Source of the DNA: an uncultured Oligoflexia bacterium
Lineage (GTDB): Bacteria; Bdellovibrionota; Bacteriovoracia; Bacteriovoracales; Bacteriovoracaceae
Direction: 5' to 3'
Length of the DNA: 32,107 nt
NCBI GenBank assembly: GCA_937898585.1
Contig: CALDHR010000291.1
Location: 1 to 32,107, forward strand
Shown: piece by piece, positions 10,319-28,882 of the stretch
How the letters are laid out: every line of letters begins with the position of its first letter
Numbering within the stretch: the first letter of the stretch is position 1
Position numbers and translations under genes: made by a program
The notes under the pieces: generated by a model
The model's input: only the letters and a program-made list of their open reading frames with translations
Database searches by the model: none
Told to the model about the DNA's origin: nothing

Positions 10319-12274
10319 ATGATTCATCATTTTGTAGTAAAGCGCGTTATTTCCTCTGTGGCCTCTCTGCCTTCTGAAATTAAGACAATGGTAGTTTTTG
10401 TCTATGATTTACTGGGAGCGGCCTTTTGCTTTTACTTGGCCCTAGTGCTTCGTCATGGTGATTTTCATCTTCTTCATCAAAATAAATCTCATGAATTTAT
10501 GCTTTCACTTTTTTTGGCCGTTTTTATTCAAGGAGTTGTTTTTTATACTTTTGGTCTCTATCGGGGAATTTGGCGCTACTCTAGTACGCCTGATCTCTTG
10601 CGCCTTATCAAAGGAGTCTCTGTTGCTGAAGTGGCCACCGTTCTTGTTTTATTCTTTTTTAACAGAATTGAATTTTTTCCTCGCACAACTTTTCTTATTA
10701 ATTGGCCTCTTCTGGTTATTTTTCTAGGAGGCGGTCGTCTTTTTTATCGACTCTTAAGAGATCAGTACAATCGTCCGCCCCAAGATGTTATTCGCACTGC
10801 GATCTGGGGAACAGGATCTGTGGGAGAACAACTTTTTCGTGAGACGAGAAAGAATCATCAGTTGAAAATGCAGGTGGTGATTTATTTTGAAAGTGATAAA
10901 AAAATGCAAGGAAAGACTTTGCATGGCGTGAGTATTGTTAGCCCTAACATTAAAGAGTTTGGTTTTTACCTTCTTAAATACCAACTTCAGCGGATTATTT
11001 TGGCCGAAAGTGAATTCAATCAAGAAATTCTTCCTGAAGTGACTCGGATTTGCAGTGAGCACGGTGTGCAGTTAAAGATTACTCCTCACTTTATGTCTCT
11101 TATGCGCGATAAGGAAACCATTTATCAGATTCGCGATATTGCGCCCGAGGATTTGCTGAAGAGAAAAATGGTGACACTGGATAATCGGGCCCTTGGAGAG
11201 CTTATTTTCAAAAAAGTTGTTTTTATTTCAGGGGCAGGTGGGTTTATCGGAAAAGAAATCTGTTTGCAGCTTTCTCGCTACAAACCAAGTAAAATGATTT
11301 TTTATGATCTCTGTGAATTTAATCTCTATGAATTAGACCAAGTTTTTAGAAAAATGAAAGAGAAGATCTCTTATGATCTTATTGTAGGTGATGTGAGAGA
11401 TCGTGAGAAACTCGATATTTTATTTTCCTCTCATCGTCCAGAACTTATTTTTCATGCCGCGGCCCTTAAGCATGTTCCCCTAATGGAGTTAAATATTGCT
11501 GAGGCCGTTAAAACAAATGTGAGAGGAACTTATGTTTTAGGGCAGTTGGCCCAAAAATATAAAGTGGAAAAATTTGTGCTTATCTCTTCTGATAAGGCCA
11601 TTAATCCCAGTAGTGTAATGGGTACCACAAAACGCATGGCCGAGATGGTTTGCCAGCACTTTCAAGAAGTCAATAAAGATTCTCCCACTCAGTTTATCAC
11701 TGTTCGTTTTGGCAATGTTTTTGGCAGTACGGGCAGCGTTATTCCTCTTTTTAAAAAGCAAATTAAAGAAGGAGGCCCCTTAACTGTCACTCATCCGGAA
11801 ATGAAGCGCTTTTTTATGGATATCTCAGAAGCAACGCAGCTAGTTTTACAGGCGGCCGCTATTGGGAGCAAAGGTGAAGTTCTTGTTTTAGAAATGGGCC
11901 CAGCAATAAAAATATTAGATTTAGCAAAACAGATGATTAATCTTGCTGGCCTGACAGTAGGTAAAGATATTGATATTGAATTTATTAATTTGCGAGCAGG
12001 GGAAAAATTAGAAGAGGAACTTTTTTCAAAAGAGGAAAAACTTCTTCCCACAGCTCATCCCATGGTGCACGTTGCTCAAGTGAAAAAAAATAGCAGCGGA
12101 GTTCATGAAATGATGATGAAGATTTTTGATGCTGCGCGAACAGAAGATGACGTCTTGGTGAGAGAATTAATGGCCACTTTGGTGCCAGAATATTCACCTG
12201 ATGAGACAGAAAGTTCTCGATTAGAACAATCATCCTCTCATGGAGAGAAAATTTTTGAGGAGCTCGTGGTATGA
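10319..12274 (+). CDS. FlaA1/CapD/WbpM-type nucleoside-diphosphate-sugar 4,6-dehydratase
   Basis: This inner-membrane-anchored SDR has 651 residues. Four hydrophobic helices fall within about 25-145. Two nucleotide-binding domains follow, with GTGSVG at about 164-169 and GAGGFIG at 305-311. The active-site region SSDKAINPSSVMGTTKR has Met434 and Lys438, an MxxxK in place of the usual YxxxK. That is the signature of UDP-GlcNAc C4,C6-dehydratases (WbpM, PglF, CapD). It makes UDP-4-keto-6-deoxyhexoses for O-antigen, capsule or glycoprotein sugars. It is the first gene of the operon; its stop overlaps the cysD start by 4 bp (ATGA). The tail after residue 600 is acidic and polar. Confidence 0.92.
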   Translation: MIHHFVVKRVISSVASLPSEIKTMVVFVYDLLGAAFCFYLALVLRHGDFHLLHQNKSHEFMLSLFLAVFIQGVVFYTFGLYRGIWRYSSTPDLLRLIKGVSVAEVATVLVLFFFNRIEFFPRTTFLINWPLLVIFLGGGRLFYRLLRDQYNRPPQDVIRTAIWGTGSVGEQLFRETRKNHQLKMQVVIYFESDKKMQGKTLHGVSIVSPNIKEFGFYLLKYQLQRIILAESEFNQEILPEVTRICSEHGVQLKITPHFMSLMRDKETIYQIRDIAPEDLLKRKMVTLDNRALGELIFKKVVFISGAGGFIGKEICLQLSRYKPSKMIFYDLCEFNLYELDQVFRKMKEKISYDLIVGDVRDREKLDILFSSHRPELIFHAAALKHVPLMELNIAEAVKTNVRGTYVLGQLAQKYKVEKFVLISSDKAINPSSVMGTTKRMAEMVCQHFQEVNKDSPTQFITVRFGNVFGSTGSVIPLFKKQIKEGGPLTVTHPEMKRFFMDISEATQLVLQAAAIGSKGEVLVLEMGPAIKILDLAKQMINLAGLTVGKDIDIEFINLRAGEKLEEELFSKEEKLLPTAHPMVHVAQVKKNSSGVHEMMMKIFDAARTEDDVLVRELMATLVPEYSPDETESSRLEQSSSHGEKIFEELVV

Positions 12275-13176
12275 GTCAATATCAGTTAAATCATCTTAAA
12301 CAATTAGAAGCAGAGGCCATCTATATTATCAGAGAGGCCCTTTCTCTTTTTGAGCGGCCAGTCTTACTTTTTTCAGGTGGAAAAGATTCCATCACTCTCT
12401 TTCATCTTTTAAAGAAAAGTTACTATCCCCAAAAAATAGGGATTCCTCTTCTTCATGTTGATACGGGACACAATTTTCAAGAAACTATTTCTTTTCGCGA
12501 CACATTTGTGCAAAAAGAGGGCGTGAAATTGATGGTGGCCAGTGTCGAAGAAAGTATTGATAAAGGTGATGTTGTCGAAGAAAAAGGGGTGGGGGCCTCA
12601 CGAAATTTTTTGCAGTCAGCAACGCTGATGAAAAGTATTGAAGAGAATCAGTTTGATTGCCTTTTTGGTGGTGCCAGACGCGACGAAGAAAAGGCCCGTG
12701 CCAAAGAGAGATTCTTCTCTCATCGCAATGAATTTGGTGAATGGGACCCTAAAAATCAACGGCCAGAACTCTTTGGTCTACAAAATGGTCATTTGAGACG
12801 AGGAGAGCATTTTAGAGTTTTTCCTTTGAGTAATTGGACAGAGCTGGATGTTTGGCAATATATTTTAGAAGAAAAGATAGATCTTCCCTCTTTATACTTT
12901 GCTCATGAAAGGCGTGTCTTTGAGCGACAGAAAACCATTTATGCCTATGAGAATTATGTTCAACTCTCTCCTGAAGAAGAAATCACCATTAAGAATATTC
13001 GCTTTAGAACTATTGGGGATGTTACGTGTACAGGTGCCGTTGAATCCACTGCTGATAGCGTTGAAAAAGTTATTGAGGAAATTAAGATGGCAAAAGTGAC
13101 AGAGCGTGGAACGCGTATGGATGATCAGCGCTCTGAGACGGCCATGGAAGATCGAAAAAAACAGGGATATTTTTAA
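12271..13176 (+). CDS. cysD: Sulfate adenylyltransferase subunit 2 (ATP sulfurylase small subunit)
   Basis: CysD adenylates sulfate to adenosine 5'-phosphosulfate (APS) as a heterodimer with the GTPase CysN. The PP-loop SGGKDS is at 35-40 (LLFSGGKDSITLFHLL). The CysD-specific GGARRDEEKARAKERFFS and a WDPKNQRPELF-type segment follow, then FPLSNWTELDVWQYI and the C-terminal RFRTIGDVTCTGAVES. The length of 301 residues is normal. The ATG overlaps the dehydratase stop by 4 bp, and the TAATG junction gives a 1-bp overlap with cysN. That layout implies strictly coupled translation. The position inside a glycan operon suggests PAPS supply for sulfotransfer rather than cysteine synthesis. Confidence 0.96.
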   Translation: MSQYQLNHLKQLEAEAIYIIREALSLFERPVLLFSGGKDSITLFHLLKKSYYPQKIGIPLLHVDTGHNFQETISFRDTFVQKEGVKLMVASVEESIDKGDVVEEKGVGASRNFLQSATLMKSIEENQFDCLFGGARRDEEKARAKERFFSHRNEFGEWDPKNQRPELFGLQNGHLRRGEHFRVFPLSNWTELDVWQYILEEKIDLPSLYFAHERRVFERQKTIYAYENYVQLSPEEEITIKNIRFRTIGDVTCTGAVESTADSVEKVIEEIKMAKVTERGTRMDDQRSETAMEDRKKQGYF

Positions 13177-14447
13177 TGATTGAAAAAGATATGCTTCGCT
13201 TTTGCACTGTTGGATCAGTGGATGATGGAAAGAGCACTCTCATTGGTCGTCTTTTGTATGACACAAATTCACTTTGTGATGACCAAGTTGAGATGCTTCA
13301 AAAGGTGAGTAAAAAAAGAGGGCAAGATTTTATCGATTTTTCTCTTCTCACTGATGGCCTGAAGGCCGAGAGAGAGCAAGGAATTACTATCGATGTGGCC
13401 TATCGCTATTTTTCTACAGAAAAGAGAAAATTTATTATTGCCGATTGTCCCGGCCATGTTCAGTACACGCGCAATATGATTACAGGCTCTTCTTCATCGC
13501 AGCTAGTTTTACTTCTTGTTGATGCGCGCAAAGGTGTCTTAGAGCAAACAAGACGTCATTTGTTTCTTTCGTCTCTTTTGGGAATTAAGCATCTCGTCAT
13601 CTGTATCAATAAAATGGATATGGTGAATTATGATGAGAGAGTTTTTCACAATGCCATCAATGAAGTAAAACAATTTCTCGTGCGTATGGATATTCACGAT
13701 GTACACTTTATTCCTCTCTCGGCCCTTAAGGGAGAAAATATTGTCAAAAAGTCAGAGAATTTTTCTTGGTACGAAGGACCGACTCTTTTGTATTTACTAG
13801 AAAATATTCATGTGATGGCCGATGGCAATTTTATCGACGGCCGTTTTCCTGTGCAAATGGTGATTCGTCCTATGCGAGAGGAGTTTCACGATTTCAGAGG
13901 TCTTGCTGGCCGTGTGGAAAGTGGTGTTTTTCGTCCAGGGGATGAAGTGATGGTCCTTCCTCTTGGTCTTGAGACAAAAGTAAAATCTATTACCACAATG
14001 GATGGTGAACAGACAGAGGCCTTTTATCCACAATCAGTATGCCTCACTCTTGATGATGAATACGACGTGAGTCGAGGTGACATGGTGGTGAAAAAAAATA
14101 ACCGCCCCGAAGTCTCGCAAGACTTAGATGTCATGCTCTGTTTTATGGGAAATCAAGAACTGGATACAAAAAAGCGCTATTTAGTGAAGCAGACAACCAG
14201 AGAAGTGAAGGCCTATATTCGAGAAGTTATCTACAAAATTGACATTAATACTCTTCGCAAAGTAAATGAAGGGGCCCTTCGGATTGTGGCCAATGATATT
14301 GCACGCGTAAAAATGCGTTTATCGGCGCCTCTTTTTTTTGATGACTTTAAAAAAAATCGCAATACAGGTGTTGTTATTTTGATGGATGAAGTGAGTAATG
14401 AAACAATTGCAACGGGTATCATTGATCACCGCGAGCTCTCATCGTGA
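13176..14447 (+). CDS. cysN: Sulfate adenylyltransferase subunit 1 (GTPase subunit)
   Basis: This translation-factor-like GTPase activates CysD. G1 is GSVDDGKST (13-21), the switch region is REQGITIDVAYRYF, G3 is DCPGH (90-94), and G4 is NKMD (145-148). Beta-barrel domains follow to residue 423. It ends without the fused APS-kinase domain seen in CysNC/NodQ proteins; the kinase is encoded separately by the next gene. The start shares one base with the cysD stop, and its TGA overlaps the GTG of cysC (GTGA). EF-Tu-like relatives are excluded by the GSVDDGKST motif and by the cysD neighbour. Confidence 0.95.
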   Translation: MIEKDMLRFCTVGSVDDGKSTLIGRLLYDTNSLCDDQVEMLQKVSKKRGQDFIDFSLLTDGLKAEREQGITIDVAYRYFSTEKRKFIIADCPGHVQYTRNMITGSSSSQLVLLLVDARKGVLEQTRRHLFLSSLLGIKHLVICINKMDMVNYDERVFHNAINEVKQFLVRMDIHDVHFIPLSALKGENIVKKSENFSWYEGPTLLYLLENIHVMADGNFIDGRFPVQMVIRPMREEFHDFRGLAGRVESGVFRPGDEVMVLPLGLETKVKSITTMDGEQTEAFYPQSVCLTLDDEYDVSRGDMVVKKNNRPEVSQDLDVMLCFMGNQELDTKKRYLVKQTTREVKAYIREVIYKIDINTLRKVNEGALRIVANDIARVKMRLSAPLFFDDFKKNRNTGVVILMDEVSNETIATGIIDHRELSS

Positions 14448-15073
14448 AAGAAAATATTCATCAGCACAATTTTTCTCTCAAAAGAGAAGACTTTCTCAAA
14501 AAAAATAAAATGGAGAAAGAGGAGAGAATTTTGTGGTTCTTTGGCCCTTCAGGAGCAGGAAAGTCCACTCTCGCCAATGAAGTTCAGCGTCGCTATTTTA
14601 AAGAAGATAGACCACTAAAAATTCTTGATGGAGATGATCTTCGCTCAGGACTCTGTTCTGATTTAGGTTTTAGTATCGAAGAGCGAAGTGAGAATATGAG
14701 ACGTGCGGCAGAAGTAGCAAAGCTTTTTCATGAAATGGCGTTAGGCCCTCTTTGTTGCTTTGTAACACCTTTAAAAATTCATCGCGATATTGTGCGCTCT
14801 ATACTTAAAGAGAGAGTTCTCTTTTTTTATATTGCGGCGACACTAGAAGATTGCTTTGAGCGAGATCCTAAACAGCTCTATGCTCGGGCCAAAAATAATG
14901 AAATAAAAGATTTCACATCTCTAAGCTCTCCTTTTGAAGAACCTAACTTAGAAGAAGAGAGTGATTGCTATAAAATTGATACGAGTAAGAAAAATATCTC
15001 TTCTTGTGTAGAGGAAGTTTTTTCTCTTTTAAGGAGTACACTTATTCATGATAAAACACAATCAACGCTTTGA
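14444..15073 (+). CDS. cysC: Adenylylsulfate (APS) kinase
   Basis: CysC phosphorylates APS at the 3' position to give PAPS, the universal sulfate donor. The P-loop GPSGAGKST is at 34-42. LDGDDLRSGLCSDLGFS and ERSENMRRAAEVAKLF match the APS-binding region. ERDPKQLYARAKNNEIKDF is the family's lid segment, followed by the S.FEEP motif. The usual ISPYR-type stretch reads VTPLKIHRD here, a modest deviation. There is an N-terminal extension of about 25 charged residues before the kinase fold. The start is GTG overlapping the cysN stop by 4 bp. The 3' end overlaps cysQ by 26 bp. Confidence 0.92.
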   Translation: MKENIHQHNFSLKREDFLKKNKMEKEERILWFFGPSGAGKSTLANEVQRRYFKEDRPLKILDGDDLRSGLCSDLGFSIEERSENMRRAAEVAKLFHEMALGPLCCFVTPLKIHRDIVRSILKERVLFFYIAATLEDCFERDPKQLYARAKNNEIKDFTSLSSPFEEPNLEEESDCYKIDTSKKNISSCVEEVFSLLRSTLIHDKTQSTL

Positions 15074-15797
15074 TGCTTTTTTTTCACGCATTAAACAAAA
15101 AACACTAGATGAGCTTCTCGTTATTTCAAAAGATAAAAACTTAGATATAAAAAAGAAAGAAGATAAAACATTTGTCACGATTGTAGATTTGGCCATCTCT
15201 CATCTTGTGAAAAAAGAAATCGCAAATTTTGATTCTTCCATGTTTTTTCACAGTGAAGAAGATCAGCTCTCCGAGCTTCAATTTCCCTGTGCTATTTTAG
15301 ATCCCATCGATGGGACAAAAGAATTTGTCCAAGGACCAGCAGAGTGTGTTCTCTCTTTGGCCATCGTCTATTCACCTCGTTTTGATGATCCACGCAACCA
15401 GGCGTTTATTTTTAATCCTCTAACAGGATTTGAAATGCGCAGTAGCTCTTCTTTTATTTTTCATTATGAACTTAATCACAAAATAGAAAAAAAAGAAAAA
15501 ATGAAAAAGAATCCCTCTATTATGGTCTCACGCAGTGAATGGAAAAAAGGTCTCTTTAATGGAGAGAGAAAAAGAGAAGATCTTCAAGTAATGCCTCGAG
15601 GGAGTATTGCGTTTAAGCTGGCCCTTTTAGCGGCCGGAGGATGTGATAAAATTATTTCTAAAAAACCAAAAAATATTTGGGATATCTGCGCAGGAACTAT
15701 TTTGTGTTATCAGCGAGGAATTTATTTTTATCAAAATGGTAAAAAAAATGCGATAATTGATAATAAAATTTATAACAATGATTTAGTTTGGGAGTAG
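15048..15797 (+). CDS. cysQ: 3'(2'),5'-bisphosphate nucleotidase (PAP phosphatase)
   Basis: CysQ hydrolyses PAP, the inhibitory product of sulfotransferases, to AMP, and can also turn over PAPS. It belongs to the inositol-monophosphatase fold. The metal-binding motifs are HSEED (residues 68-72) and LDPIDGTKEF (84-93), and the C-terminal WDICAG motif is present. With 249 residues it is near the usual size. The start at 15048 lies within cysC and is supported by AAGGAG 11 bases upstream. Its presence in the same operon as cysDNC indicates that PAP is actually generated, that is, PAPS is consumed by sulfotransfer or reduction. Confidence 0.92.
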   Translation: MIKHNQRFDAFFSRIKQKTLDELLVISKDKNLDIKKKEDKTFVTIVDLAISHLVKKEIANFDSSMFFHSEEDQLSELQFPCAILDPIDGTKEFVQGPAECVLSLAIVYSPRFDDPRNQAFIFNPLTGFEMRSSSSFIFHYELNHKIEKKEKMKKNPSIMVSRSEWKKGLFNGERKREDLQVMPRGSIAFKLALLAAGGCDKIISKKPKNIWDICAGTILCYQRGIYFYQNGKKNAIIDNKIYNNDLVWE

Positions 15798-15802
15798 CGC
15801 AA

Positions 15803-17746
15803 GTGCAAATGCAAAATATGCAAAAAAAAACAGGCCAAGTTTGCGTTATTATCCCTGTCTATAATCATTTTAATTACACCAAACAGTGCCTTGAATCTCT
15901 TTTCTCTCATGAATCAAAATATACTTTTGATATTATCGTCATGGACGATTGTTCTACTGATGAGACAGAGAAAGAACTAAGTGTAAAAGACGGCATTCGT
16001 TATGTGCGTAACAAAGAAAATTTAGGTTTTTTAAAAAACTGCAATAAGGCGGCCAGGTTTAGTGAAAGTGAATTTCTCGTTTTTTTGAACAACGATACCA
16101 TCGTCAAAGAAAAGTGGCTTGATTCTTTAATTGATACTTTAAAAAGAGATTCTTCTGTCGGACTTGTAGGATCAAAGCTTATTTATCCTGATGGACGACT
16201 TCAGGAAGCAGGAGGAATTATTTTCTCCGATGGTCGGGCCTGGAACTATGGGCGTCTTTGTGATCCAAATGATCCTACTTTTAATTATACGAGAGAAGTT
16301 GATTATTGTTCAGGTGCCTCTATTGCCATTCGCCGTGATCTTTTTATGAACCTCGGTCTTTTTGATGAGCGTTATGCACCTGCTTATGCAGAAGACTCTG
16401 ATCTTTGTTTAAAAGTTAAAGAGGCCAAATTAAAAGTTGTTTATCAATGTGCTTCTGAAGTTATTCATTTTGAAGGAGTTAGTTCGGGAACAGATCTCTC
16501 TAAGGGAGTAAAATCCTACCAGACAATCAATGTAAAAAAGCTCTATGAAAAATGGTCTCATCAATTAAAAAACAATGGTCTTCCTGAGCATCATCCTCAT
16601 CTTTGTCGTGATAAAGGAGTAGAAAAAAGATTACTGCTTATTGATGCTGTTACCCCTAATGCTGCCATGGATTCAGGTTCAGTTAATACACTCAATTACA
16701 TTAAACTTTTTCAGGCCCATGGTTTTAAAGTCTCTTTTTATGCTTTTAATAAACCTTTTTACGTAGAAGAGCATACGGCCCATTTGCAACAAATGGGGGT
16801 GGAAGTTTTTTATCGTCCTTATTATCAAAACATCGAAGAAGTATTGGCCTTTGAAGGTTATGCTTATGATCAAATTTTACTTGTCCGGCACTATATCGCT
16901 TCTCAATGTTTGGCCCAAATTAAACTCTATGCTCCTCAAGCAAAAGTCTTGTTTCACAACAGCGACTTTCACTATCTTCGAGAACTTCGTCAGGCAAAAA
17001 TTTCAGAGAAACTCAGTGATTATATTTCGGCCGAATTGACAAAAAAATCAGAGTTTTCTGTCATGAGTTCAGTGGATGTCGTTATTGTTCATACTATTTT
17101 TGAAAAAGATCTCCTAAAAGAGATTTTTCCCGGCATCACGGTTGAAGTTTATCCTTGGACTATTGAAGTGGTGGAAAAAAAATCTTCCTTTGAAAAAAGA
17201 AAAGGAATTGTTTTCTTAGGAGGCTATGCTCATCCTCCTAATGTTGATGCTGTTATTTATTTTGCTAAAGAAATTCTTCCTCTTGTTATTGAAGAAAATC
17301 CTGAAATTGTTTTTTATGCTGTGGGATCAAAAGCACCAAAAGAGCTCTATCAATACGAAGGAGATAATTTAAAAATTATTGGCTTTGTGGAAAATTTGGA
17401 AGAGTGCTTTGAGCAGTTTCGCGTGGCCATTTCCCCTCTCCGTTACGGAGCAGGAATTAAAGGAAAAGTTGCCACCTATATGGCCAATGGACTTCCTTCT
17501 GTTATTACCCCTATTTCGGCCGAGGGGATGGGGCTTGTTCACGAAAAAGAAGTTCTCATTTCTTCTAATGAAAAAGATTTTGCTCGCGCTATCGCTCGTC
17601 TTTATGAAGATGAAGGATTGTGGAATACATTAGAAAAATCAGGAAAAGAATTTATTGATAATCATTATTCTTTTAGAATAGGAAAAGAAATCATTGGATC
17701 TGTTTTACAAAAATCAAAAGAAAGTGAGTTGAGAGTTTATGGATGA
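15803..17746 (+). CDS. Two-domain glycosyltransferase (GT2 + GT4-like)
   Basis: The frame is open from a TTG at 15788. GTG 15803 has GGGAG with 8 bases of spacing, so I prefer it (647 aa); ATG 15809 or 15818 are alternatives. The N-terminal GT2 domain has CVIIPVYNHFNYTKQCLESL, the IVMDDCSTDET strand, LNNDTIVKEKWLD with its acidic metal site, and an AEDSDLCLKVKEAKLKVVY segment. The C-terminal part (about residue 260 onward) is a GT-B domain with GGYAHPPNVDAVIYF, a GFVENLEECF segment and SPLRYGAGIKGKV typical of Glyco_trans_1_4. Such bifunctional enzymes add two sugars to surface glycans. The start overlaps or abuts cysQ, and the stop overlaps the next gene by 8 bp. Confidence 0.88.
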   Translation: MQMQNMQKKTGQVCVIIPVYNHFNYTKQCLESLFSHESKYTFDIIVMDDCSTDETEKELSVKDGIRYVRNKENLGFLKNCNKAARFSESEFLVFLNNDTIVKEKWLDSLIDTLKRDSSVGLVGSKLIYPDGRLQEAGGIIFSDGRAWNYGRLCDPNDPTFNYTREVDYCSGASIAIRRDLFMNLGLFDERYAPAYAEDSDLCLKVKEAKLKVVYQCASEVIHFEGVSSGTDLSKGVKSYQTINVKKLYEKWSHQLKNNGLPEHHPHLCRDKGVEKRLLLIDAVTPNAAMDSGSVNTLNYIKLFQAHGFKVSFYAFNKPFYVEEHTAHLQQMGVEVFYRPYYQNIEEVLAFEGYAYDQILLVRHYIASQCLAQIKLYAPQAKVLFHNSDFHYLRELRQAKISEKLSDYISAELTKKSEFSVMSSVDVVIVHTIFEKDLLKEIFPGITVEVYPWTIEVVEKKSSFEKRKGIVFLGGYAHPPNVDAVIYFAKEILPLVIEENPEIVFYAVGSKAPKELYQYEGDNLKIIGFVENLEECFEQFRVAISPLRYGAGIKGKVATYMANGLPSVITPISAEGMGLVHEKEVLISSNEKDFARAIARLYEDEGLWNTLEKSGKEFIDNHYSFRIGKEIIGSVLQKSKESELRVYG

Positions 17747-18161
17747 TAAAGAGAGAATTATTTATTTAGAAAACAAACTTCATAGCTATGAACTTTATAT
17801 GAGAAATTATATTGAAGAAAGACGTCATTCTCTTATGAAAAAAGGCCCAACCCCTTTAGATGTAAGAGCTGCTCTAGATGAACGAAGACAAAAAATAGGC
17901 GAAGGACCCAAAAGACATATTCTCATTCGTCTCTTAAAGAGAGTTTATAATAAAATAGGAATTTTTCAAAAAATTGATGCTTTTATTCAACAGCGAATCG
18001 CCTCGGCCATTTCTCTGGAAATGGAGAGAAGGCTTAATCACATGAAAGAAGAAATGCAGCTTTATCACAAGGGTGAAATGATTGATTTAAAAGGAGATAT
18101 CCAATCATGGATGGGAGGATATCTCCGTTATAAAGAAGATCAGTCAAAAATTATTCAGTAA
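17739..18161 (+). CDS. Small hypothetical protein coupled to the glycosyltransferase
   Basis: The 140-residue protein is highly charged and mostly helical. The first 30 residues (ERIIYLENKLHSYELYMRN) and residues 80-115 (ISLEMERRLNHMKEEMQLY) have heptad-like spacing and may form coiled coils. There is no signal peptide. A basic-hydrophobic stretch in the middle (HILIRLLKRVYNKIGIF) could lie on the membrane surface. The 8-bp overlap with the upstream glycosyltransferase implies co-translation. It could be a partner or membrane adaptor of the transferases, but this is inference. I recognise no family. It ends the operon 15 bp before the convergent SDR gene. Confidence 0.7.
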   Translation: MDDKERIIYLENKLHSYELYMRNYIEERRHSLMKKGPTPLDVRAALDERRQKIGEGPKRHILIRLLKRVYNKIGIFQKIDAFIQQRIASAISLEMERRLNHMKEEMQLYHKGEMIDLKGDIQSWMGGYLRYKEDQSKIIQ

Positions 18162-18175
18162 CCCGAATAAAAAAA

Positions 18176-19186
18176 TTATCGCGTTAAAAAATAGCGACCT
18201 TGCTTTACTCTCTCTCTCCAATAATTGAGAAGATCTTGCATCGTCTGCTCAAAAGAAATCTCCGGTTGCCATCCCGTATGTGATTTAAATTTTTCGAGAG
18301 AAGGAATTTGCAAGTCAGCGTCAATAGGGCGAATGCGATCGGGATCAACTTCAATAGTAATATTCTTGGCCGTTGAAATACTGATAAGATAATTGAGCAT
18401 CTCTTTAACAGTACAAGAATAATCACCACCAATATTGTAATACTCACCAGCAATAGGATTATGAGTCACCAGCATATAATAAGCACGCACAGCATCTCTA
18501 ACATCGGCCCAAGTTCGCATAGAATCAAGATTTCCCACTTTGATAACAGGAGGAATAAGATCCATTTCCATCATGGCAATTTGCTTGGCAAAAGTAGATT
18601 CTGCAAAAACATCTCCTCGCCGTGGTCCTGTATGAGTGAACATGCGCGTTGTCATAATAGTGAGTTGGTAGGCCTCAGCATAAAAACGGCCAATTAAATC
18701 TGTTCCTGTCTTTGAAATAGCATAAGGGGATGCAGGGTGAAAGGTCGTCTCTTCATCAATAGGAACTTTCTCTTTTGGTACACGGCCAAAAATTTCAGAT
18801 GATGAACAGTTGTGAATAATGGGATTTAATTTTGAACGGCGAACGGCCTCAAGAAGCTTACAAGTTCCAATAATATTGGTGTTGAGCGTATCAAAAGGAG
18901 CATCAAAGCTCGTTTTTGGATAACTCTGAGCGGCCAAGTGAAAAATATAATCTGGTCTTGACTCTTCAATGACATTGACAAGAGAAGCATAATCATTGAG
19001 GTCACCATAAAGGAATTTGAGTCGATCTTTTTTTTCTACGCGAGGAAGAAGATGCTCGACATTGTCAAGAGGACTCCTCCAACGACACATGCCAAAAACT
19101 TCCACATCTGTTTTTTCTAAAAGAAAATCAGCGAGATGTGATCCCACCATTCCTGTAATACCCGTAATAAGTGCTCGTTTTGTCAT
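18176..19186 (-). CDS. GDP-mannose 4,6-dehydratase-like SDR (nucleotide-sugar dehydratase/epimerase)
   Basis: The upstream TTG would add six residues, but ATG 19186 has GAAGGA at good spacing and overlaps the preceding gene's stop by 4 bp, so I use it (336 aa). The extended-SDR motifs are GITGMVGSHLADFLL at the N-terminus, LNDYASLVNVI, the SSSEIFG active-site strand, and the catalytic YxxxK as SPYAISK. GMD-type signatures RMFTHTGPRRGDVF and KVGNLDSMRTWADVRDAV are present. It likely produces a 4-keto-6-deoxy sugar nucleotide, or epimerises one. It works with the SDR directly upstream, whose reductase-like fold could complete a two-step 6-deoxysugar pathway (inference). Confidence 0.85.
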   Translation of the reverse strand: MTKRALITGITGMVGSHLADFLLEKTDVEVFGMCRWRSPLDNVEHLLPRVEKKDRLKFLYGDLNDYASLVNVIEESRPDYIFHLAAQSYPKTSFDAPFDTLNTNIIGTCKLLEAVRRSKLNPIIHNCSSSEIFGRVPKEKVPIDEETTFHPASPYAISKTGTDLIGRFYAEAYQLTIMTTRMFTHTGPRRGDVFAESTFAKQIAMMEMDLIPPVIKVGNLDSMRTWADVRDAVRAYYMLVTHNPIAGEYYNIGGDYSCTVKEMLNYLISISTAKNITIEVDPDRIRPIDADLQIPSLEKFKSHTGWQPEISFEQTMQDLLNYWRERVKQGRYFLTR

Positions 19187-20064
19187 AAATTTATTCCTTC
19201 GCAAAAAATATTATCGATCTTGCGGTTCGCTGTAACAGCTGCTGGATCCCGCTGAAGTAATTTTTTCATTCGCAAGTTACTGATAGAAATAATCTCTGGA
19301 CGATTAAAATAAAAACTCTCTGGTGGTCGCACAATAGAAAAACGAAAAGAGGAATTTTTCTTTTGAAAAGATTTGGCCAAATCTACTCGTGAGAGAAGAT
19401 CATCTCCTCCTACATTTATGATAGAAGGAATGCTTTTGGTCCAAGGTTGAGAGAGAACTTTTAGGAGAGAAAGAATATCGCTTAAGATAATGGCGTTGCG
19501 ATAATAAGGATGAAAAATTTCGGCCACTAGATTTTTTTTCAAACAGCTTTCAAGATAGCGTGTTGATTTATCACTATGATGGATAACTAAGGAGAGGCGT
19601 AGAATTTTCACGAGAGGATTTTGTGATACGGCAACTTCAACCTCTCTCTTCATTTTTGCATAATCACCTAGAGGAACACAGGCATCATCTTCATGAAAAA
19701 CCCTTTGGTTGTCTTCTTGAGCTTTCCCATAGACGGTATCTGAAGAAAAGAAAATGACTCGCCCGCCAAGTTTCGTTATTTTTTCAATAAAAGAGACAGG
19801 TCCTGTGACATTAATACGAAGACTTCTCGCGTAGTGCTGGTGGCATTCATCAGGGGATGAGATGGCCGCCGTTAAGATAATAAGATCATTTTTTTCTATC
19901 AGATGATAAGGAAAAGAGTCGATTTCTTGGAGGTTAAAAGGGATAATTCTTTCTTTTTGCGGGATAAGAGAAGAAGAAGTAAAAAAGTAATCAAGATTGT
20001 CTTTTTCTTCTTCATAGAGGGCGTTGGAAATAAGTCCCGTTCTTCCAATAACAAATGTCTTCAT
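19183..20064 (-). CDS. RmlD/Rmd-like SDR, probable nucleotide-sugar reductase or epimerase
   Basis: The 293-residue extended SDR is shorter than the epimerase average and resembles dTDP-4-dehydrorhamnose reductase or GDP-6-deoxy-mannose reductase. The N-terminal loop is VIGRTGLISNAL, in which the third glycine of the usual GxxGxxG is a serine. LTAAISSPDECHQH resembles the NAD(P)-contact strand, the active strand is FFSSDTVYG, and the YxxxK is DYAKMK. It overlaps the downstream GMD-like gene by 4 bp. The ribosome site is weak (AAGGA about 13 bases upstream). It is divergent from the sulfotransferase gene. The substrate is unknown. Confidence 0.75.
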   Translation of the reverse strand: MKTFVIGRTGLISNALYEEEKDNLDYFFTSSSLIPQKERIIPFNLQEIDSFPYHLIEKNDLIILTAAISSPDECHQHYARSLRINVTGPVSFIEKITKLGGRVIFFSSDTVYGKAQEDNQRVFHEDDACVPLGDYAKMKREVEVAVSQNPLVKILRLSLVIHHSDKSTRYLESCLKKNLVAEIFHPYYRNAIILSDILSLLKVLSQPWTKSIPSIINVGGDDLLSRVDLAKSFQKKNSSFRFSIVRPPESFYFNRPEIISISNLRMKKLLQRDPAAVTANRKIDNIFCEGINL

Positions 20065-20154
20065 AATAAGTAAGAGATCCTTTTCCTTTCAGTTTGCACC
20101 AGTTACAATGATTTGTGAATTTTTTCTTCTTTGGAAAAAAGGGATAGAGACGCC

Positions 20155-21066
20155 GTGGGGAGTATATCAAAAATTCTTTTAGTTCTTGGTCCTCATCGAT
20201 CGGGATCTTCTCTTACTTCTCATATGCTTGAGACCATGGATATTTTTCATGGACCCAAAGAGTTGTTGATGGGGAGTTCTAAAGAAAATGAAAAAGGTTA
20301 TTGGGAATATCTTCCTCTTGTTAAATTGCACGAAGAGATGTTGTCTTCTTTGGGGCGCTCCTGGCATAATCCTCCTAGAAATCTCTCTGAGGAAGATGTA
20401 GAAAATCTTCAATCTCTCTTTGGAATACGTGCAAAGCAGCTTGTCTTAGAGATGGATATTATGAGTGAAGGAAAAACCTGGTGCTTTAAAGATCCTCGCC
20501 TTGGAAGCTTTCTTCCTTTTTGGAAGAAAAATTTAGCAAATCGTGCTTGCTACGCTCTTGTCACTAACCGTCATCCTTTTGCTGTTGCCGCTTCCCTCTA
20601 TAAAAGAGAGCAGTTTCCTGCCGTTTTTTCTTACACTCTTCAAAAAAGAATACTCGCGTCTATTAATGATCATTTAGATTTTTTTCACAGCACTCATCAA
20701 ATTAACTATGAAGATTTTTTTACCAGGCCGGAAAAAGTTTTTGATAATGTTGTCTCTTTTTTACAAAAAAATGAACTCTCGACTCATTTTTCGCGAGATG
20801 TTTTTCTTCAAGAGGTACTAGATCCTTCTCTTATGCACCATGGATCTTTTCAGGAAGAAGAATTAGCGTCATTTGAGGCCGAAGAAGGAATTTTAGAGCT
20901 GGCATCAAAGTGGATTAATGAAAAAAAAGAAAATAAGCTTTTGAAGGCAAATTTGCGCAAAAGCAACCGAGAGCTGCGTCTTTCTCTTATTGCTCGTTAT
21001 AGTGAAAATAAGATCGAGAGCAAAAAGGAATTACTTCATGAAAAAAATTGCCATCCTTCAGTCTAA
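20155..21066 (+). CDS. PAPS-dependent sulfotransferase family protein
   Basis: The frame opens at TTG 20131, but GTG 20155 has a purine-rich AAGGGA upstream and starts close to the fold, so it is preferred; the TTG remains possible. The 5'-phosphosulfate-binding loop is LVLGPHRSGSSLTSHML. The 3'-phosphate-binding site is VTNRHPFAVAASLYKRE, with Arg and Ser spaced as in sulfotransferases. A CFKDPRLGSFLPFW segment lies between them. No signal peptide or membrane helix is seen, so it acts in the cytosol on a soluble or lipid-linked acceptor. The nearby cysDNC-cysQ genes supply PAPS and remove PAP, which strongly supports the call. It overlaps the WbqC gene by 29 bp. The acceptor is unknown. Confidence 0.82.
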   Translation: MGSISKILLVLGPHRSGSSLTSHMLETMDIFHGPKELLMGSSKENEKGYWEYLPLVKLHEEMLSSLGRSWHNPPRNLSEEDVENLQSLFGIRAKQLVLEMDIMSEGKTWCFKDPRLGSFLPFWKKNLANRACYALVTNRHPFAVAASLYKREQFPAVFSYTLQKRILASINDHLDFFHSTHQINYEDFFTRPEKVFDNVVSFLQKNELSTHFSRDVFLQEVLDPSLMHHGSFQEEELASFEAEEGILELASKWINEKKENKLLKANLRKSNRELRLSLIARYSENKIESKKELLHEKNCHPSV

Positions 21067-21787
21067 TTACATTCCCTGGAAAGGTCAGTTTGACCTCATC
21101 GATGCGGTTGATGAATTTATTTTATATGATGATATGCAGTATACTCGGCGCGATTGGCGCAACCGCAATTGCATTAAAACAGCGCAGGGTCTTTTGTGGC
21201 TTACCATTCCTGTTAAAGTAAAAGGAAAGTTTGATCAAAGAATTTGTGATGTGGAGATTGAAGAAAAGAGCTGGGCGAAGAAGCACTGGAGTAGTATTCG
21301 TCAGAACTATGCCAAGGCCGCCCATTTTAAACAATTTGAAGAGCAATTTGCTCACCTCTATGAGAAGGCCGCTACTTTGAATCGTCTGGTAGATGTAAAT
21401 AGTCTTTTTTTAAGGAGTATTTGCGATATTTTTGCCATTAAAACAAAAATAACTTCCTCTCTGGACTACGGAGAAACAGATCTCACTAAAACGGCCCGTC
21501 TTGTCTATCTTTGTCAAAAGGCACAGGCCAATTTCTATCTCTCTGGCCCTGCAGCAAAAGATTATATAATTCCCGAACTTTTTTGGAATCAAGGCATTGA
21601 GTTTGCTTATGCCAATTATGCTCATTATCCCGAATATAAGCAGCTTTATGGTGATTTTGCCCACAATGTCTCTGTTCTAGATCTTCTTTTTAATGTGGGA
21701 GAGGAGAGTCTAAAATTTCTCAAGGGACCAAAAAAAATAATAGGACCTATTGAATCGCAATTTAGTGGCATTCGGGCCGAAAATTGA
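21038..21787 (+). CDS. WbqC family protein
   Basis: The frame is open from 20990, but ATG 21038 with AAAAAGGAA before it gives the canonical WbqC start (249 aa): MKKIAILQSNYIPWKGQFDL, then DEFILYDDMQYTRRDWRNRN, and WLTIPVKVKGKF. Members lie in O-antigen and capsule clusters; a role in N-formylation or acyl modification of amino sugars has been suggested for related proteins, but the activity is not settled. It overlaps the sulfotransferase by 29 bp, so the two are co-translated and probably act on the same glycan. A long inverted repeat follows its stop. Confidence 0.88.
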   Translation: MKKIAILQSNYIPWKGQFDLIDAVDEFILYDDMQYTRRDWRNRNCIKTAQGLLWLTIPVKVKGKFDQRICDVEIEEKSWAKKHWSSIRQNYAKAAHFKQFEEQFAHLYEKAATLNRLVDVNSLFLRSICDIFAIKTKITSSLDYGETDLTKTARLVYLCQKAQANFYLSGPAAKDYIIPELFWNQGIEFAYANYAHYPEYKQLYGDFAHNVSVLDLLFNVGEESLKFLKGPKKIIGPIESQFSGIRAEN

Positions 21788-28028: not shown

Positions 28029-28882
28029 TTATGCAGTTAACTCAACTGCGTTATTTCTATTTATTTTATCGATAAACTCCCTGGGCGTTAACATGCCAAG
28101 AGAGCTGTGCGGTCTTTCATTATTGTATTAATCAATCCAATTCCCTGCTTTATATTTCATATCCATGATACTTTTAAAACAATAAACATTTAAAAACTCA
28201 TCTCTGACTTTTCCGTTAAAAGATTCAATAAAGGCATTATCTGTAGGCTTGCCTCGACGAGAAAATTTCAATTTAACATTATTTTCATAGGCCCATTTAT
28301 CTAATGCCATACAGATAAATTCAGGTCCATTGTCAACTGTAATGATCTGAGGATGACCATAAAAGGTACATATTTCTTCAAGCGTCTGAATAACTCTCTT
28401 TCCCGTTAGAGAATAATCAAATTCAATTCTTGGACAATAACGGCTGAAAACATCAATAATCGTTAGACCGCGAACTTTTCTTCCTGATGCTAATTCATCT
28501 GAGATGAAGTCCATTGACCAAATATCGTTAATGAATTTTGCTTTGATTTTTTGCTCTACCACCTCGCTTTTGTCTTTTTCTTCTTTTTTCCTTTTTTTAT
28601 TCCAAGCTTTAAAACCTTATAGTAAATCCTCTCACTCTTTTTGTGATTCACTTGAAAACCATCTCTTTTCAGCATCTCATAAATCCTTGGGTGGCCATAC
28701 CTAATGCGTTTTTCTGACCAAAATTTTATCCTTTCAATGAGCTGATGATCTTCCTTTTTCACTGAATGATAACGAAAACTTGAAAGCGGAAGAGTGGTCA
28801 CTCGACAAGCACGACTTTGTGAAATGTCATAATTTTTTAACAAAACCCTGGTCGCTTCCTTTTTTGCTTGGCAAGTCACCAC
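28029..28882 (-). pseudogene. IS3-family transposase OrfB, disrupted by a frameshift and an in-frame stop
   Basis: The N-terminal part (28556-28882, GTG start overlapping the orfA stop) has the HTH_21-type region with RACRVTTLP and RYGHPRIYEML. A frameshift in an A-rich run near 28560-28575 (GKKKKKTKARW then stop) moves the frame. The rest begins at VEQKIKAKF and has the DDE integrase core: NDIWSMDFISDEL, TVDNGPEF and a NAFIESFNGKVRDEF segment with the Glu. A TAA codon at 28128-28130 follows GNWID. Reading through gives the family C-terminus YNNERPHSSLGMLTPREF to a TAA at 28029. Two independent lesions mean it cannot make active transposase without suppression. Confidence 0.85.

Follow-up and report, generated by a model that had tools for sequence, protein, structure and literature searches.

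The locus considered here raises the question of why genes for making and recycling 3'-phosphoadenosine 5'-phosphosulfate (PAPS) should lie embedded among surface-glycan genes in a bacterium of the Bacteriovoracaceae. The window, i.e. the whole stretch of 32,107 nucleotides that was analysed, is the entire contig CALDHR010000291.1 of an uncultured Oligoflexia bacterium (assembly GCA_937898585.1), and hence nothing lies beyond its ends; the genome itself is a 2.25 Mb bin of 323 contigs, 75.4% complete, from which rpoB is missing. We consider it likely that the run formed by cysD, cysN, cysC and a cysQ-like gene acts as a module for PAPS supply within the glycan locus, feeding sulfation of the glycan made there. 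Sulfated polysaccharides have been described in few bacteria, and the sulfotransferases responsible for them are poorly characterised.

The identity of the run itself is well defined (Table 1). CysD and CysN share 47% and 48% identity with the respective E. coli K-12 proteins, with the PP-loop (SGGKDS) of the former and the GTPase motifs of the latter intact. CysC (36% identity to the E. coli K-12 enzyme) keeps its P-loop and matches APS (adenosine 5'-phosphosulfate) kinases among solved structures at E 2e-29. The CysQ-like protein is 27% identical to E. coli CysQ and retains the metal motifs SEED, DPIDGT and WDICAG; it probably clears 3'-phosphoadenosine 5'-phosphate (PAP). The overlaps measure 4 bp for the FlaA1-type dehydratase gene and cysD, 1 bp for cysD/cysN, 4 bp for cysN/cysC, 26 bp for cysC/cysQ, 10 bp for cysQ and the two-domain glycosyltransferase gene, and 8 bp for the latter and a 140-amino-acid open reading frame (ORF). 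These six same-strand junctions suggest co-transcription from the first gene to the last. The preliminary description of four cys genes overlapping by 1–26 bp between a FlaA1-type dehydratase and a two-domain glycosyltransferase is thus borne out by the coordinates and Pfam domains, with CysD, CysN and CysC above curated cut-offs. Promoter-like sites were found in no excess over shuffles. An N-terminal DUF2061 membrane domain (PF09834) is found on the APS kinases of three relatives (L039:8276-9052, L041:7913-8656 and L046:8846-9574) and is absent from the window CysC.

The candidate PAPS-dependent sulfotransferase of the window carries both of the PAPS-site motifs originally ascribed to it, namely a 5'-phosphosulfate-binding (5'-PSB) loop, GPHRSGSS (residues 20–27), and a 3'-phosphate-binding (3'-PB) segment, RHPFAVAAS (residues 147–155). 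Across an alignment of seven sequences, H22, R23, S24, K120-R123, R147 and S155 do not vary. The separation of 3 kb first given for this gene did not hold, as it lies 4.3 kb past cysQ and 2.4 kb past the glycosyltransferase gene. An AlphaFold model was generated from an eight-sequence alignment (predicted local distance difference test, pLDDT, 77.5; predicted TM-score, pTM, 0.69), a single-sequence model (pLDDT 41.6) not being used. When this model was compared with the PDB using Foldseek, all five matches at E<=0.001 were sulfotransferases, comprising mycobacterial Stf1, two domains from polyketide pathways and two entries of human tyrosylprotein sulfotransferase 2 with bound PAP.

Homologues of the window sulfotransferase are scattered. 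A single relative (33% identity) was detected elsewhere in the phylum (L132), directly 3' of an ATP-binding cassette (ABC) exporter ATPase gene; a scan of genome contigs returned none. Most of the homologues on plasmids (E to 7e-11) carry a sulfotransferase annotation, and several of the plasmid homologues adjoin rhamnan-synthesis or glycosyltransferase genes. The homologues L138, L139, L172 and L178 reach the PF13469 (Sulfotransfer_3) cut-off. Furthermore, an IMG/VR contig end (L143:1-1973) carries an APS kinase gene (PF01583, 220 bits) followed 75 bp on by a sulfotransferase homologue, which provides an independent tie between this family and PAPS; the contig is classed as viral and is probably the host flank of a prophage. 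PAPS binding, the lack of which the preliminary description regarded as fatal to its proposal, is therefore predicted for the window protein from its motifs and fold, the Pfam-passing homologues and the homologue beside an APS kinase.

Other members of this family differ in size and setting. Short forms occur on contigs classed as viral (L172:3986-4561, L173:3971-4549 and L178:3986-4666), and the same motif block is combined with other N-terminal regions in proteins of 645 (L176:71-2008) and 800 (L177:3113-5515) amino acids, that of L176 being without a Pfam family. Only one homologue was found in 50,697 phage records, in Pseudomonas phage Y4 (L141:3001-3621; OQ572406.1, unannotated and marked UNVERIFIED; E 7e-11).

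Related genomes allow the pairing of APS kinases with sulfotransferases to be considered more broadly. A strong APS kinase is present in 13 of 59 related genomes; set beside the expectation that a sulfated envelope glycan would be unusual in a predatory member of Bdellovibrionota, the potential for surface sulfation is patchy across the phylum but not unique. PF13469 is found at cut-off in seven of the 59, and six of these also contain the APS kinase (Fisher p 2.4e-4, in a test that takes no account of phylogeny and counts the discovery genome; p 9e-4 with the latter removed). In several relatives the genes are close to each other. Genome G005 has consecutive sulfotransferase, cysD, cysN and cysC genes, G003 a sulfotransferase gene immediately 5' of cysD, and G006 a cysC adjoining a sulfotransferase gene in a locus that also includes NeuB and NeuC; L073, from a record named uncultured Bacteriovoracaceae, holds cysQ, two sulfotransferase genes, cysC and cysD inside 6 kb. 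In each of these cases a sulfotransferase is at cut-off. A cut-off-passing sulfotransferase lies ~8 kb from cysD in G028, and in G026 and G046 a neighbour has a sulfotransferase-like motif below the Pfam cut-off. No sulfotransferase candidate was seen in the neighbourhoods of G017 and G044, in the latter of which cysC is accompanied by an ATP sulfurylase of the one-chain type. The own genome contains a second sulfotransferase on contig C191 (PF13469, 87 bits), and this adjoins HddA/HddC-like genes (heptose kinase-like and guanylyltransferase-like, below equivalog cut-offs).

CysDN and CysC constitute the first steps of assimilatory sulfate reduction in E. coli, and the run could in principle serve that pathway, with cysH and sulfite reductase encoded elsewhere and its place among glycan genes due to chance. 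The incompleteness of the own genome leaves room for this, as absences from a bin that is 75% complete alone carry little weight. Sulfite reductase (PF03460) was, however, found in 0 of 59 related genomes, of which 45 reach 90% completeness or more, with controls positive in 11 of 14. Across the phylum, it was detected in one of 369 genomes and in none of 235 of good quality. The sole match (L170, G104:C380) is asrC-like with ferredoxin domains, next to ferredoxin and flavin genes that resemble other anaerobic sulfite reductase subunits, a set we take to be asr. It was set aside in view of these neighbours and the fragmented bin (~410 contigs), and the contig is possibly foreign. The cysH model likewise reached its cut-off in 0 of 59 relatives (7 of 14 controls at cut-off). 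A search of the own genome for a second cysDN or a cysH, as suggested at the outset, returned a single CysD/CysH-family match of any strength, the window cysD. No cysH, cysI or cysJ is found in the window, in agreement with the initial observation, and the contig has no sequence outside the window in which they could adjoin the run. Since sulfite reductase is near-absent from the lineage, cysH is not found at cut-off in the 59 relatives and APS kinase co-occurs with sulfotransferases, PAPS is most likely made here for sulfation, and assimilation appears very improbable. Hence, cys genes can be tied to sulfation unusually cleanly in this lineage, as loss of cysC should touch sulfation alone.

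Sulfation does not by itself specify a glycan acceptor. A lipid, protein or small molecule could instead be modified, with the glycan genes mere neighbours, as illustrated by Bacteroides thetaiotaomicron, where putative PAPS genes BT_0411-0415 adjoin the cholesterol-sulfating BT_0416 (PMC9417993). Such an acceptor would be in keeping with the position of the window sulfotransferase apart from the cys run and with the tyrosylprotein and polyketide-pathway enzymes among its fold matches. We regard it as unlikely, given that the cys genes overlap glycan genes at both ends, that homologues of the window sulfotransferase adjoin glycan genes, and that the C191 sulfotransferase adjoins heptose-nucleotide genes; the most probable acceptor is a surface glycan. 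A somewhat more plausible alternative, albeit still a doubtful one, is that PAPS bypasses the window sulfotransferase and feeds the C191 enzyme or one encoded in the quarter of the genome that the bin lacks. The higher PF13469 score of the C191 protein and its HddA/HddC-like neighbours favour this, and it is compatible with PAPS-based glycan sulfation. The window protein nonetheless has the motifs and fold and shares a glycan region with the cys genes, and PAPS may serve both sulfotransferases.

Several observations weigh against a PAPS module that supplies sulfation of the locus glycan. The window sulfotransferase scores 23.3 bits against PF13469, below the cut-off of 27, and no relative of it was detected among the 58 closest genomes. 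Two minus-strand genes (18176-20064) place it outside the overlapping run. The TM-scores of its fold matches are modest (0.39–0.44), such that the model assigns a sulfotransferase fold but does not define its details. The best NCBIfam match of the CysQ-like protein is the CysQ equivalog, yet with 55.6 bits against a cut-off of 228.8. No sulfate importer was identified in the window, and no polysaccharide exporter (Wzx, Wzy, Wzm or Kps) was found among the scanned window proteins, the contig ending at both sides. Taken with the cys/glycan gene overlaps, the sulfotransferase evidence and the missing reductive branch, the proposal made in the preliminary description, that the locus makes a sulfated LPS or exopolysaccharide, nevertheless appears the most likely one in the broader form of a sulfated surface glycan, be it LPS, capsule or exopolysaccharide.

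For the PAPS module feeding glycan sulfation, a mechanism can be proposed. The sequence shows directly the families of the enzymes, their active-site motifs, the order of the overlapping genes and the lack of the reductive branch among relatives, whereas the enzyme activities, the surface glycan as acceptor and the identity of the sulfated sugar are inferred. Within the run, the dehydratase and glycosyltransferases would make and assemble the acceptor. CysDN would convert sulfate and ATP to APS, which CysC would phosphorylate to PAPS. The window sulfotransferase, and possibly also the second one elsewhere in the genome, would transfer the sulfuryl group to a sugar of the locus glycan, while the CysQ-like phosphatase would clear the PAP that is otherwise inhibitory to the sulfotransferase.

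This arrangement resembles NodPQ/NodH of rhizobia, in which a dedicated PAPS supply serves a carbohydrate-acting sulfotransferase; there, the acceptor is a secreted lipochitooligosaccharide and NodQ is a CysN-CysC fusion, unlike in the window. Parallels are also provided by sulfated capsules of solved structure in marine bacteria. In Vibrio sp. KMM 8419, the polysaccharide cluster for the capsule has cysC, cysN, cysD and sulfotransferase genes, a combination of PAPS and sulfotransferase genes termed a hallmark of sulfated polysaccharide synthesis (PMC11641403). The Vibrio cys genes are second copies, the cell having another set, and are accompanied by a Kps ABC exporter, in a different phylum. 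In Cobetia marina KMM 1449, the capsule cluster combines cysN/C, cysD, cysQ and sulfotransferase genes, with CysQ assigned to PAP clearing (PMC11766843). It differs in its fused cysN-cysC, and in a sulfate permease gene and Kps exporter that were not seen in the window. The Bacteroides BT_0411-BT_0416 set shares the adjacency of PAPS genes and sulfotransferase, and the window CysD is near a large Bacteroidota CysD set, but the sulfate goes to cholesterol there, and the set is not described as including glycan genes (PMC9417993). Judged by gene content, the window fits the known sulfated-capsule locus pattern except for the unseen exporter. The kind of locus is thus already known; its novelty lies in the lineage and in being separate from sulfate assimilation.

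The origin of the module was considered by placing 83 CysD proteins on a tree. On it, the window CysD groups with those of G005, L073 and G046 (97/96), near the large Bacteroidota set; the CysD proteins of G017 and G028 are E. coli-like, and those of G003 and G026 belong to a third type. Within this analysis, it is the grouping with L073, the named Bacteriovoracaceae record, that supports placing the organism in Bdellovibrionota. As the set was picked by closeness, the tree suggests, but does no more than suggest, that the window CysD was gained by transfer from Bacteroidota. A CysD scan of viral contigs gave no match. A phmmer census of mostly Bacteroidota cysD loci found sulfotransferases at 6 of 81, using a method that misses divergent families. 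Bdellovibrio and sulfotransferases are mentioned together in only four of the papers searched, one to three times each, and a sulfated envelope, if true, would probably be new to the group. It is conceivable, if rather improbable, that a predatory Bdellovibrio-like lineage without sulfate reduction gained PAPS synthesis several times and kept it solely for surface sulfation, the charge serving recognition, self-protection or prey attachment.

Table 1 Features of the window discussed in the text, with supporting profile matches.
Feature	Coordinates	Strand	Support and remarks
FlaA1/CapD-type membrane UDP-sugar 4,6-dehydratase	10319..12274	+	First gene of run; PF02719 364 bits, PF13727 (CoA_binding_3) 33 bits
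cysD, ATP sulfurylase small subunit	12271..13176	+	TIGR02039 402.5 bits (cut-off 396.6)
cysN, ATP sulfurylase GTPase subunit	13176..14447	+	TIGR02034 532.5 bits (cut-off 336.1)
cysC, APS kinase (makes PAPS)	14444..15073	+	TIGR00455 151.2 bits (cut-off 138.7); PF01583 above cut-off
cysQ-like phosphatase	15048..15797	+	PF00459 69 bits (cut-off 27)
Two-domain glycosyltransferase, GT2 + GT1	15788..17746	+	TTG start; PF00535 + PF13692
140-amino-acid ORF	17739..18161	+	Last gene of run; without Pfam or NCBIfam match
GDP-mannose 4,6-dehydratase-like nucleotide-sugar enzyme	18176..19204	-	PF16363 267 bits
RmlD-like nucleotide-sugar reductase	19183..20064	-	PF04321 56 bits
PAPS-dependent sulfotransferase candidate	20131..21066	+	Listed TTG start, exact start uncertain; PF13469 below cut-off
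WbqC-like protein (surface-glycan gene)	21035..21787	+	Start uncertain; PF08889 242 bits; overlaps sulfotransferase end
IS3-type transposase over two overlapping ORFs	28128-28882	-	HTH_21 + rve domains

The IS3-type transposase listed last in Table 1 may represent an insertion sequence that is broken or frameshifted.

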